This document shows, piece after piece, positions 48,088-52,639 of a stretch of 64,000 nt of DNA. The DNA lies in contig PDRW01000034.1 of the NCBI GenBank assembly GCA_002746935.1, positions 1 to 64,000 of the forward strand, written 5' to 3'. Each line of letters starts with the position of its first letter. Positions within the stretch are counted from its first letter, which is position 1. A model generated the notes under the pieces. That model had not been told where the DNA came from and did not search any database. It saw only the letters and a program-made list of their open reading frames with translations. Source of the DNA: Rhodobacterales bacterium (GTDB taxonomy: Bacteria; Pseudomonadota; Alphaproteobacteria; Rhodobacterales; Rhodobacteraceae). A program made the position numbers and the translations under genes.

Positions 48088-49083
48088 TCATCGCACCACC
48101 TCGGCCGGCACGCCATGTTGCACGAGGGTGTAGCACGCCCGGCCACGCCGTTTCGACTCATAGAGCGCGGCGTCGGCATCGCGCTGCATCCGTTCGGGAT
48201 CGGGGCGGGCGTAGAGCGAGGAGGGCGCAATGCCAATGGAGGCGGAAATGCGGGCCTCGCCGTCGCCGCAGGGCACCGGTTCCTCAAGCCGTTCGATCAC
48301 CCGCCCGGCCAGGGCACCCAGCTGTTCCGCATCCATCATGTTTTTGAAAACAATGACGAATTCATCGCCCCCGACCCGCGCGACAACATCTTCCGCACGG
48401 GTGAGTTCGTTGAGGACCCGGGCCACGCTCTCCAGCACGAGATCGCCTGCCGCGTGACCCAGCGTATCGTTTACCGCCTTGAAGAAGTCGAGATCGACAT
48501 GCATCAGCGTAAACGGGGTGCCCCGGGACACAATCCGCGCGAGCGCCTGGTCGAGCGCGCGGCGGTTATAGAGGCCGGTGAGCGTGTCGGTCAGCGCCTC
48601 GGCCTGCGCCACCGCCCTGGCCCCCGCAAGCCGCCCCGCGGTCTTGCTCGCCTCCTCCATCGCCGCGGCATTGGCCTCGACGAGATAGAGCAGTTCGAGC
48701 GTCAGGTCGGTGGCGGCGAAATCGGAGCCGGCAAGGCCGAACCGCGCGACCGCCTCCACCACGGCAATTCCAAAGGAGAGATTCAGCAACACCCCCTCGC
48801 CGCCTGCAAGGCAGATCGCGGTCGCGGTGAGCGGGGTGCGGGCGGCATCGCGCAGACGCAGAGAAATCCTGGTGCCGGAGGCCTCGCAAGCCGCGTTGAT
48901 GTCGGCCCCGGCCGGCCTGCGCAGTTCAAACAATTCGTGGAACCCGGCCCCGGCCAGAACCCTTCCGGGGCAGACCTTGGCCAGCGTCGGCCCGGCATGG
49001 AGCATTGTACCGTCCGGCGCGACCAGAACATGCATCGGCATCAGAACGTCGAGCCCGTCGGGGGCGAAGGAAACCAGTTTCAT
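48088..49083 (-). CDS. Diguanylate cyclase with HNOBA sensory domain
   Basis: A 331-residue cytoplasmic protein. Residues 14-140 match the heme-NO-binding-associated (HNOBA) domain of soluble guanylate cyclases: LVAPDGTMLHAGPTL, FHELFELRRP, and FGLAGSDFAATDLTLELLYL. A helix (140-162) leads into a GGDEF domain with intact GGDEF at 238-242 and a product-inhibition site R229-x-x-D232. It should make c-di-GMP. Its ATG overlaps the H-NOX stop (ATGA), so the two are coupled and probably interact. Confidence 0.88.
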   Translation of the reverse strand: MKLVSFAPDGLDVLMPMHVLVAPDGTMLHAGPTLAKVCPGRVLAGAGFHELFELRRPAGADINAACEASGTRISLRLRDAARTPLTATAICLAGGEGVLLNLSFGIAVVEAVARFGLAGSDFAATDLTLELLYLVEANAAAMEEASKTAGRLAGARAVAQAEALTDTLTGLYNRRALDQALARIVSRGTPFTLMHVDLDFFKAVNDTLGHAAGDLVLESVARVLNELTRAEDVVARVGGDEFVIVFKNMMDAEQLGALAGRVIERLEEPVPCGDGEARISASIGIAPSSLYARPDPERMQRDADAALYESKRRGRACYTLVQHGVPAEVVR

Positions 49084-49682
49084 TCCACCGCCCTTTCCGC
49101 GACCGGCGCGGCAAGGTCAAACTCGCGCCCCTCGGCAAATTCCGCGTCAGCCAGCTGGATGGTCAGGATCTCCGCCCCGCCGGATTCGCCCTCGTAGTCG
49201 ATCAGCACCAATGCGCCGTAATCGTCCGCGAGCGCCCTCAGCAGGCCAAGGTAGACATGGCCGAACCCCTTGTGCGGCGAGTGGCAGGCGAGCCGGTAGG
49301 TGCCCCCGCCCTGCTCGCCGACCTCGATCTGCGGCAGATCGAGATCGGGCACCGCAAGGCGGGCACGGCCGCGCAGATCTTCCAGAGAAGCAAGAAAATC
49401 CTCGTAGTCCACGCCCCCGAAACGCAACAGGCGGCGGATCCGCTCCGCGGTGGGGCTGGCGACAAGGAATGTGCCGAAATCCTCGAGCAGCATGTCGGGC
49501 GGTTTGCCAAGCCGCGCGGAGGCGCTTTCAAGCATCTGGTAAGACAGCGCGTCATCATAGTGGAGCACCGCTTCGAAACTGTCGAACCCTGTGTCCAGAT
49601 CTTCCACCACCGCCGCCCAGAGCGGCGCGCCATAGGTAACCTCCAGAAAGCTTTCGAACGATCGGTTGACGAGCCCATGCAT
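49080..49682 (-). CDS. H-NOX (heme-NO-binding) domain protein with altered heme motifs
   Basis: A 200-residue stand-alone H-NOX protein. The N-terminus MHGLVNRSFESFLEVTYGA and LLEDFGTFLV fit the family, which senses NO or O2 through heme. Two key sites deviate. The proximal-ligand position in LEDLRGRARLAVPDL is Arg104 instead of His. The YxSxR heme-propionate motif reads C133-x-S135-x-H137. Either change alone should weaken normal heme binding. The ATG at 49682 gives the family N-terminus; a GTG 11 codons upstream is possible. It is coupled to the HNOBA-GGDEF gene and preceded by a CtrA-like site. Confidence 0.82.
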   Translation of the reverse strand: MHGLVNRSFESFLEVTYGAPLWAAVVEDLDTGFDSFEAVLHYDDALSYQMLESASARLGKPPDMLLEDFGTFLVASPTAERIRRLLRFGGVDYEDFLASLEDLRGRARLAVPDLDLPQIEVGEQGGGTYRLACHSPHKGFGHVYLGLLRALADDYGALVLIDYEGESGGAEILTIQLADAEFAEGREFDLAAPVAERAVE

Positions 49683-49730
49683 GATACGCACCCCGGATAC
49701 CCAAAACAGGATCACCCTAGGACAGAAGTG

Positions 49731-49745
49731 TTAACAGGAGCGTAA
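49731..49745 (-). promoter_or_regulatory. CtrA-box-like site before the H-NOX gene
   Basis: TTAA-N7-GTAA on the plus strand (TTAC-N7-TTAA on the gene strand), one mismatch from the CtrA consensus, about 50 bp upstream of the ATG at 49682, next to an AT-rich promoter-like stretch (49790-49870). Confidence 0.4.
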
Positions 49746-50597: not shown

Positions 50598-50872
50598 GTC
50601 CAGTTCACCTCTCCACCGCCGGGCAGCGCGTGGCGCGCGCGCATCGGGATGTCATAGGCGAGCCCTGCCGCATCGCAGAACCCGGTAACCCATCTGTCGT
50701 CCATCAGGAGAAAATCGAGCACGGCGCCGAGAAACGCCGGCTCCCCCGCCTGAGCCTTCAGATCTTCCGTTGACGCGCCGGAAGCCCTTAGAAAAACAGG
50801 GAAAATCTCGTCGTTCCCGGCCAGCCAGGCAAGCGCCTGCAAGCCCACGGTTTCGGCAATTTCCTGCTTCAT
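50594..50872 (-). CDS. DUF3572 family protein
   Basis: A 92-residue, mostly helical, acidic protein. Typical family segments are GLQALAWLAGNDEIFPVFLRASG and LGAVLDFLLMDDRWV. No function is known. DUF3572 genes commonly sit divergently next to pleD in alphaproteobacteria, as here. It is translationally coupled to the HAD phosphatase. Confidence 0.87.
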   Translation of the reverse strand: MKQEIAETVGLQALAWLAGNDEIFPVFLRASGASTEDLKAQAGEPAFLGAVLDFLLMDDRWVTGFCDAAGLAYDIPMRARHALPGGGEVNWT

Positions 50873-50967
50873 GGTGCGGTTTTCCCCGGGCCCGGAAACC
50901 CTTTGTTAACGATTCTCGGGCAACATTAACCAAACGACCGCAAATCAACAGAGCGAAGCGCATCTAT

Positions 50968-52359
50968 ATGGTTGGCCGCATCCTCATCGCAGACAGTTCC
51001 GCCGCCAACAGGGTGATCCTGAAGGCGAAGCTCGAAGCGGCGCGCTATGTCATTCTCCAGGCCGCCAGCTGCGAGGAAATGGCGGACTGTGTCGCCAGGC
51101 AACGGCCCGACATGGTCATTCTCGATGCCCGCCTGCCCGGACAGGCGGCGCAGGGGCTGGACTGGCTGCGCGCGGCAAGAGGCGAGGCCGGAATGACCGA
51201 ACTGCCGGTGATCGTGACCGATGCGGTGCCCGGCCGTGCCCAGCGGCTTGAGGCACTGGCGGCCGGCGCCGACGTTTATCTCGAAAAGCCCTTCGATGAG
51301 GTTACCCTGCTCGCCCTGGTGCGTCACCAGATGCGGATGCGGGTGATGCACGAGGAACTGACCCGGCGGCAGGATACCGCCAGAGAGCTGGGCTTCACCG
51401 AGATTCTGCCCGACCCCGGGCGAATGCCGCGCGTGGCGGTGATCGCGCCGGACCCCGCCGAAGGGCTCGCATGGCGCGGCGCGCTGGCGGAGCGGCTTGA
51501 CGCGCGGGTGCTGGTGATCGACCGCAACGGCGCGCTCGACCGCTGGGCCGAGGGCGACGCGCCCGACGCTTTCGTCATCGGCGCCGGGCTCGCGCACGAC
51601 CGCGACGGGCTGATGCTGGTGAGCGAGCTGCGCTCGCGTCCCGCCACCCGGCACGCGGTGATCGTGATCCACGACAGCGCGGCCAATCCCGACACAATGC
51701 CCTCCGCCCTCGACATCGGCGCCAACGCGGTCACCCAGGGCGGCTTTGACCCCGAAGAAATCGCGGTCCGGCTGACACCGCTGATCGCGCGCAAACGCGA
51801 AGTGGACGCGCTGCGCGATTCGGTCGATGCGCGCCTCAGCCTGGCGGTGCTCGACCCGCTCACCGGGCTTTACAACCGCCGCTATGCCGAGACCTACATG
51901 CGCCGGGTAATCGCCCAGGCCTGCCAGACCGGCCAGCCCTTTGCCCTGATGCTGCTCGACCTCGACCGGTTCAAGCGGGTAAACGACAGCTACGGCCATA
52001 TCGCCGGCGATGAAGTGCTGATCGAGACCGCGCGGCGGTTGCAGGCGAATGTGCGCGAGGTGGACATGCTGGTGCGCCACGGTGGCGAGGAATTCCTGAT
52101 CGCCATGCCGGCGACGGGTTACGACGCCGCCTCTCAGGCCGCCGAACGGTTGCGGCAGGTCATCGGCGGGGCGCCGATGCGCACGGCGCATGGGCGCGAA
52201 TTGCCGGTCACCGTTTCGATCGGGGTCACGGTCTGCACCGGCGCGCCGAACGAGACACATGACCTTCCGGGTCTGATCGAAGCGGCCGACCGGGCACTTT
52301 ATGCCTCGAAAACCCACGGCCGCAACATGGTGCGTTTCGCCGGCAGTGCCGCCGCCTGA
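50968..52359 (+). CDS. pleD: PleD-type response regulator diguanylate cyclase
   Basis: A 463-residue two-component output protein with REC - REC-like adaptor - GGDEF architecture. Receiver 1 has the phosphoacceptor D53 (ILDARLPG) and the lysine in YLEKPFDE. The second receiver-like domain (about 150-290) lacks an obvious phosphoacceptor. The cyclase has GGEEF at 372-376 and an inhibitory site R363-x-x-D366. In Caulobacter PleD controls polar development through c-di-GMP. The ATG at 50968 matches family length. No cognate kinase is adjacent. Confidence 0.94.
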   Translation: MVGRILIADSSAANRVILKAKLEAARYVILQAASCEEMADCVARQRPDMVILDARLPGQAAQGLDWLRAARGEAGMTELPVIVTDAVPGRAQRLEALAAGADVYLEKPFDEVTLLALVRHQMRMRVMHEELTRRQDTARELGFTEILPDPGRMPRVAVIAPDPAEGLAWRGALAERLDARVLVIDRNGALDRWAEGDAPDAFVIGAGLAHDRDGLMLVSELRSRPATRHAVIVIHDSAANPDTMPSALDIGANAVTQGGFDPEEIAVRLTPLIARKREVDALRDSVDARLSLAVLDPLTGLYNRRYAETYMRRVIAQACQTGQPFALMLLDLDRFKRVNDSYGHIAGDEVLIETARRLQANVREVDMLVRHGGEEFLIAMPATGYDAASQAAERLRQVIGGAPMRTAHGRELPVTVSIGVTVCTGAPNETHDLPGLIEAADRALYASKTHGRNMVRFAGSAAA

Positions 52360-52380
52360 CCCGGCGCGCGGATCCAAGGC

Positions 52381-52563
52381 ATGTCGCGCAAAAGTGGACA
52401 CCGGTTTTGCGCTTTCCGACATGCCGCAACAAACCGGCATGTCGCGCAAAAGTGGACACCGGTCTTGCGCTTTCCGACATGCCGCAACAAACCGGCATGT
52501 CGCGCAAAAGTGGACACCGGTCTTGCGCCTTCCGACATGCCGCAACAAACCGGCATGTCGCGC
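52381..52563. repeat. 58-bp tandem repeat with hairpin potential, three copies plus
   Basis: Copies start at 52381, 52439, 52497, with a truncated fourth at 52555. Each unit contains nested inverted repeats: GCATGTCG with CGACATGC outside, and CGCAAAA with TTTTGCG inside. Copies 2 and 3 carry a one-base change in the inner arm. The array lies between convergent pleD and sulfotransferase genes. A 58-base period cannot encode an in-frame repeat. Confidence 0.88.
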
Positions 52564-52639
52564 CATGCGGCGGCAAACCCCATTGGGCGTCACCCGCCCC
52601 CGAAAGCAGCGCAACGGCGGCTTCGCCTCATTGCCCTCT

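Follow-up and report, generated by a model that had tools for sequence, protein, structure and literature searches.

When an H-NOX protein carries neither of the two heme signatures and is nevertheless encoded next to an intact diguanylate cyclase, the question arises what it contributes to the pair. Such a protein is encoded in the stretch of DNA analysed here, 64,000 nucleotides in length and hereafter called the window.

The hnox and dgc genes

The genes and their features are listed below; counts in brackets refer to a clade of 136 related loci, the sampling of which is described in the next section.

49080..49682, reverse strand: hnox, encoding P0001, a stand-alone HNOB/H-NOX protein of 200 aa (MHGLVNRS...AERAVE; from CDS translation, Pfam and structure-sequence alignments)
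48088..49083, reverse strand: dgc, encoding P0002, a diguanylate cyclase of 331 aa with an HNOBA-like N-terminal region and GGDEF
49080..49083, reverse strand: ATGA overlap of the hnox stop with the ATG start of dgc (read from the sequence)
49371..49373, reverse strand: CGC codon of Arg104 at the proximal heme ligand position (His105 of Nostoc H-NOX; alignment gapless nearby)
49272..49286, reverse strand: C133-H134-S135-P136-H137 replacing YxSxR (translation and alignment)
49419..49436, reverse strand: R83-R84-L85-L86-R87-F88, a clade signature (R87 136/136, R84 135/136, R83 134/136)
49332..49334, reverse strand: Pro117 (135/136), opposite a Pro in canonical H-NOX proteins which we take to be the proximal-pocket Pro
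49209..49229, reverse strand: A152-D153-D154-Y155-G156-A157-L158, a second clade signature (A152 134, D153 134, D154 130 and Y155 132 of 136)
48358..48372, reverse strand: GGDEF active-site motif, residues 238-242 of P0002
48388..48399, reverse strand: RxxD I-site, reading RAED, residues 229-232 of P0002

The hnox product matched Pfam HNOB (PF07700) with 84.2 bits (E 1.2e-23; cut-off 25.5). Its nearest solved structures by sequence were the Nostoc Alr2278 H-NOX and sGC beta-1, and the match to Alr2278 reached an E-value of 1.1e-14 with the single protein in phmmer and of 4.5e-28 with a 72-row profile. Both alignments placed residue 104 opposite His105 of Alr2278, without gaps around it, and aligned C133, S135 and H137 to the Y, S and R of YxSxR. 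A first-pass annotation of the locus had assigned Arg to the proximal ligand position and had read the second motif as CxSxH; both readings were upheld. Misalignment masking a nearby His was ruled out, because the two alignments are gapless at position 104 and no His occurs between residues 95 and 115 of the window protein. The presence of Arg104 and CHSPH in an H-NOX protein with an intact adjoining cyclase is confirmed.

The coupling of hnox to a cyclase with both GGDEF and I-site, likewise proposed in the first-pass annotation, was borne out by the ATGA overlap and by the two motifs listed above. The description of dgc as an HNOBA-GGDEF cyclase held for the second domain, with 141.5 bits for Pfam GGDEF, while the match to Pfam HNOBA (PF07701) at residues 11-61 stayed below threshold (19.2 bits against a cut-off of 23.4); the N-terminal region is conserved among relatives of the cyclase.

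Several further features were seen around the locus and in the source genome. A response-regulator protein consisting of REC and GGDEF, resembling DgcB of P. denitrificans in its make-up, is encoded on the opposite strand at 50770-52359 (+), its ORF starting about 1.1 kb upstream of hnox, and an apparent tandem repeat array at 52340-52600 gives a short CRNKPACRAKVDTG-like motif that recurs in the ORF translations. The source genome also encodes NnrS, an NO-linked gene (contig C89:53106-54251, E 6.7e-94); a FIST domain, as in NosP-type sensors, gave no match in this genome, which is 84% complete. Upstream of hnox, 63 bases from its start, the sequence TTAC-N7-TTAAC (49730-49745) differs by one mismatch from the CtrA box. 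Sites of this kind, with at most one mismatch, were present in 25 of 130 hnox upstream regions compared with 4.7 in shuffled sequences, and a spacer of 10 gave 21. This upstream site is a weak lead pointing to possible CtrA control of hnox; CtrA has been reported to influence R. capsulatus rcc02629 and the HNOX gene of D. shibae.

Homologues and class assignment

Pfam HNOB was searched in 394 genomes of the family Rhodobacteraceae, of which 296 gave a match and 98 gave none. The scores fell roughly into two classes, one above 100 bits and a lower one that included the window protein. Final classes were assigned with two profiles built on the first 94 proteins, by which L098 and L144, lower-scoring yet canonical, were placed in the canonical class. 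After removal of three duplicate loci, the clade set comprised 136 loci, i.e. the window, nine loci on genome contigs, four more members of the genus, 12 loci from genomes beyond G160 and 110 from genomes G001-G160; the places of HNOB matches are complete for G001-G160, and the loci beyond G160 derive from chosen, non-random genomes. L162, L163, L157 and L165 were left out of the calculation of site rates, leaving 132 rows, and five rows without a clear start were left out of CDS work.

Variation at the heme-ligand position

The first-pass annotation had suggested an alignment of H-NOX proteins from Rhodobacteraceae as a way of judging how widely the two replacements occur. Twelve residue types were found at position 104 of the clade (P 96, H 9, A 6, R 5, N 4, Q 4, S 3, E 2, T 2, G 2, D 1, K 1, and one gap), and the 110 rows from G001-G160 had P in 81, H in eight and one gap. 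Within the genus of the window, residue 104 was R, R, R, A, A, S and S in the seven genomes. A complete YxSxR was found in none of the 136 proteins, the nine with His104 included. Among 34 canonical-class loci of the same family, which are mostly top Pfam scorers and were classed with profiles made from both sets, the proximal-His motif was present in all 34 and a strict YxSxR in 31.

Heme might nevertheless be bound in another way, either via a different ligand, for which the conserved His2 is the best candidate, or without a strong proximal ligand, the protein then sensing NO or CO. On such a reading the proximal His could be dispensed with, since the NO-bound state releases it anyway. His2 was the sole His kept in the majority of the clade (118/136) that also occurs in the window protein, and it was present in all nine His104 and all five Arg104 proteins; the canonical proteins L011, L012 and L015 have Tyr2. 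Two other conserved potential ligands, His76 (92/136) and His98 (78/136), were rejected because both are missing from the window protein. The hinge Gly positions are also retained (G70 136/136, G146 135/136), together with Pro117; from the alignment and from general knowledge of the family, we presume these to be the functional hinge Gly and pocket Pro. Moreover, the D. shibae member of the clade is classed among the heme proteins although it lacks YxSxR, so that loss of YxSxR alone is no proof of the absence of heme. What speaks against heme held in this way is the lack of YxSxR even in the proteins with His104, the occurrence of residues other than His at position 2 in 15 of 136 proteins and of a gap in three, and the lack of any single substitute at position 104. 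A conserved His elsewhere, serving as the proximal ligand, had been named in the first-pass annotation as the observation that would count against its reading; apart from His2, the window protein has His142, which occurs in 52 of 136. With His2 kept so widely, heme held by another ligand is the main rival reading, and we consider it unlikely on balance. The open-licence literature, as far as its text was available, yielded no measured heme content of a His-less member and no biochemical work on the window protein.

Conservation and linkage of the gene pair

Loss of both heme signatures and drift at position 104 could also mean that the H-NOX gene is decaying, or that it is a passenger that merely aids expression or folding of the cyclase. 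Two members looked broken, the one in G036 matching in two frames and the one in G271 containing one internal stop. The window gene itself was compared with L002, to which it is 80% identical, giving a dS of 0.89 and a dN of 0.13, and a pseudogene reading of the window hnox was ruled out, dN being well below dS. Over ten pairs, dS was finite in eight and in all of these well above dN; synonymous sites were saturated in the other two. Ten columns were invariant among 72 rows. Decay or a passenger role is further opposed by the phenotype of the P. denitrificans deletion (PMC5588039) and is regarded as improbable, although a pure aid to folding is still conceivable.

The cyclase gene followed directly after hnox in 135 of the 136 clade loci, the window included, and the remaining one is located where its stretch ends. 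An ATGA overlap like that of the window was present in 91 of the 135 cyclase-bearing loci. A first-match pattern found GGDEF in 132 of 135 clade cyclases; RxxD was present in 130 of 134. In a co-occurrence test on 40 genomes of non-random choice, 20 of them drawn from the 98 lacking an HNOB match, the N-terminal region of the cyclase was found in 20/20 genomes with hnox and in 1/20 without it, there as a fragment at a contig edge (Fisher p 3e-10); H-NOX and this region were jointly present or absent in 39 of the 40. A role beside the intact cyclase that does not rely on a heme ligand at position 104, as had been proposed in the first-pass annotation, is supported by the variety at this position, the linkage of the pair and the low dN.

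Position 104 was at the 61st percentile of site rates (132 rows), and R83, R84, R87, R106, P117, G146, A152 and D153 were all at or below the 8th. As the ligand position evolves at a middling rate while the hinge Gly, Pro117 and Arg/Asp sites are slow, position 104 is weakly constrained, and the hinge Gly and Pro117 are conserved, as is a set of Arg and Asp residues specific to the clade. No mention of the Arg/Asp signature was found in the open-licence literature to the extent that its text was accessible.

The signature residues might form a new small-molecule site, e.g. for an anionic compound or a nucleotide, the H-NOX protein having been repurposed for a new ligand. R83, R84, R87, R106 and D153 are near-invariant in the clade, and as a set they are missing from canonical proteins such as L012 and L013. 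The same residues may, however, be plain salt bridges or form the interface with the cyclase, and two canonical proteins, L011 and L015, likewise have an Arg at the place of R87; we consider a new ligand very improbable. A metal or redox sensor working through C133-H134-x-x-H137, which the first-pass annotation had offered as an example, can be given hardly any credence, for although the residues occur in the window protein and a redox-active Cys-Zn site is present at another place in the canonical H-NOX proteins of Vibrio and Caulobacter (PMC7108781, PMC12329717), all three residues occur together in the window protein alone (1/136), C133 with H137 in 6/136 and C133, the most frequent Cys column of the clade, in 72/136, positions 134-137 are at the 77th-98th percentile of site rates (134 at the 89th, 137 at the 90th), and Group 5 H-NOX proteins have no conserved Cys according to PMC8738867.

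Origin of the clade

A screen of 385 genomes of the class with the clade profile, in which at most eight candidates per genome were scored, gave 11 matches. The clade of the window seems to be confined to the family Rhodobacteraceae, because the six matches outside the family among these candidates (L181-L186) all have His and all lack RRLLRF.

In a tree of a quick kind, 77 of the 141 inner branches were open. His104 required at least seven changes on this tree (shuffled mean 8.8), whereas the well-supported branches force only two, and retention of His is thus indistinguishable there from its loss and regain. The first branch of the clade was L101, with Asn104, LKLLRL and ADHY, so that the full signature either arose after L101 had split off or was lost in L101. 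Inside the family, the H-NOX protein of genome G294 (L011/L180) has both His and YxSxR, and the cyclase next to it is a homologue of P0002 across residues 13-312. Judged from these sequences, the G294 pair is a plausible representative of the ancestral type of arrangement.

Proposed function

We consider it probable, at roughly 60%, that the pair forms a two-part c-di-GMP switch, in which the H-NOX protein regulates the cyclase by contact, probably as an inhibitor, and does so without a His-ligated heme. The physical contact, the sign of the regulation and the absence of heme are each something that we infer. The hnox/dgc pair, kept across Rhodobacteraceae, would be derived from a canonical pair of heme H-NOX and cyclase, and in the lineage of the window the H-NOX subunit would have ceased to depend on heme bound through the usual His. 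This subunit would then regulate, and probably inhibit, the cyclase encoded by the overlapping gene through protein-protein contact with the HNOBA-like N-terminal region of that enzyme.

NO drives the proximal His of a canonical H-NOX protein from its place, and the subdomains rotate around a pair of hinge Gly residues (PMC7108781, PMC12329717). Since this activation by NO also frees helix F and the subdomains, a H-NOX protein without the His may be permanently inhibitory, i.e. fixed in an 'NO-bound-like' conformation; alternatively, its switch may respond to a signal different from NO at a His-ligated heme. Either standing or otherwise-switched inhibition of the cyclase fits the P. denitrificans mutant data described below.

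A more specific proposal is put forward tentatively, and we hold it to be possible rather than probable. The regulator would be independent of heme, with drift at the ligand position; an Arg/Asp lock made up of RRLLRF, R106 and ADDYG, established early in the clade, would have taken over the work of the heme and would keep the protein in the inhibitory state or switch it into that state. D. shibae and the few other carriers of His would be retentions or reversions.

Under this more specific proposal, NO would control c-di-GMP through a His-ligated H-NOX heme only exceptionally in the Rhodobacteraceae. Relatives have been labelled 'heme NO-binding domain-containing protein' and the like, and reviews on c-di-GMP refer to the pair of D. 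shibae as an NO sensor; with His in nine of 136 proteins, the NO-sensor reading ought not to be extended to most of the clade. RRLLRF, R106, ADDYG and His2 would be concrete targets for studying how the His-less majority signals.

Comparison with known systems

The window protein is not a singular case, as the loss of the ligand is clade-wide and has been published (PMC8738867 and PMC5588039). Group 5 H-NOX, built from the P. denitrificans H-NOX by Lee-Lopez and Yukl (2022, PMC8738867), has a proximal His in less than 10% of its members and Pro in most, with a GGDEF gene adjacent, and the paper already poses the question of how the His-less group signals. The clade of the window fits these features with respect to His (9/136), Pro (96/136), the lack of a conserved Cys and the adjacent GGDEF gene (135/136). 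Ligand loss at the level of the group is thus already in print, and the window protein is a new, Arg-bearing member.

The P. denitrificans and R. sphaeroides H-NOX proteins are described as lacking the heme ligand (PMC5588039). P. denitrificans strain HAMBI_2443 (NZ_CP141053.1) encodes a 189-aa member of the clade (L197), with the cyclase directly after it, which has Pro at the ligand place (ELPGRV) as well as IRRLLRF and MADDYG. The hnoX/dgcA pair thus resembles that of the window in RRLLRF, ADDYG, the adjoining cyclase and the missing proximal His; it differs in having Pro where the window protein has Arg, and the two proteins are 39% identical. The hnoX mutant was partially deficient in biofilm formation and BapA was absent, contrary to what is seen in the dgcAB mutant; Kumar and Spiro suggested inhibition of DgcA by H-NOX and took NO to be the input (PMC5588039). 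For authors working on P. denitrificans, c-di-GMP was undetectable (PMC12582929), and inhibition of DgcA is unproven there.

Genome G035 is that of Dinoroseobacter shibae, a 3 kb piece being 100% identical to plasmid NC_009955.1. Its H-NOX protein has His104 (DLHDRA), which puts it in the minority of the clade, and CIWHR in place of YxSxR. The D. shibae H-NOX/Dgc1 pair shares with the window the clade signature and the overlapping cyclase gene, but its H-NOX, 43% identical to the window protein, has His104 rather than Arg104, and a review counts this protein among the heme NO sensors, as one that inhibits Dgc1 (PMC8846402).

The canonical heme H-NOX proteins, i.e. Nostoc Alr2278, the Shewanella protein and sGC beta-1, have the HNOB family, Pro117 and the hinge Gly positions in common with the window protein; they possess the proximal His and YxSxR, however, both of which the window protein lacks. 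The H-NOX domain of sGC alpha-1 is free of heme and still serves a cyclase. It resembles the window protein as a heme-less H-NOX domain with this task, and differs from it in being a eukaryotic, fused domain that forms a heterodimer with the heme-bearing beta subunit.
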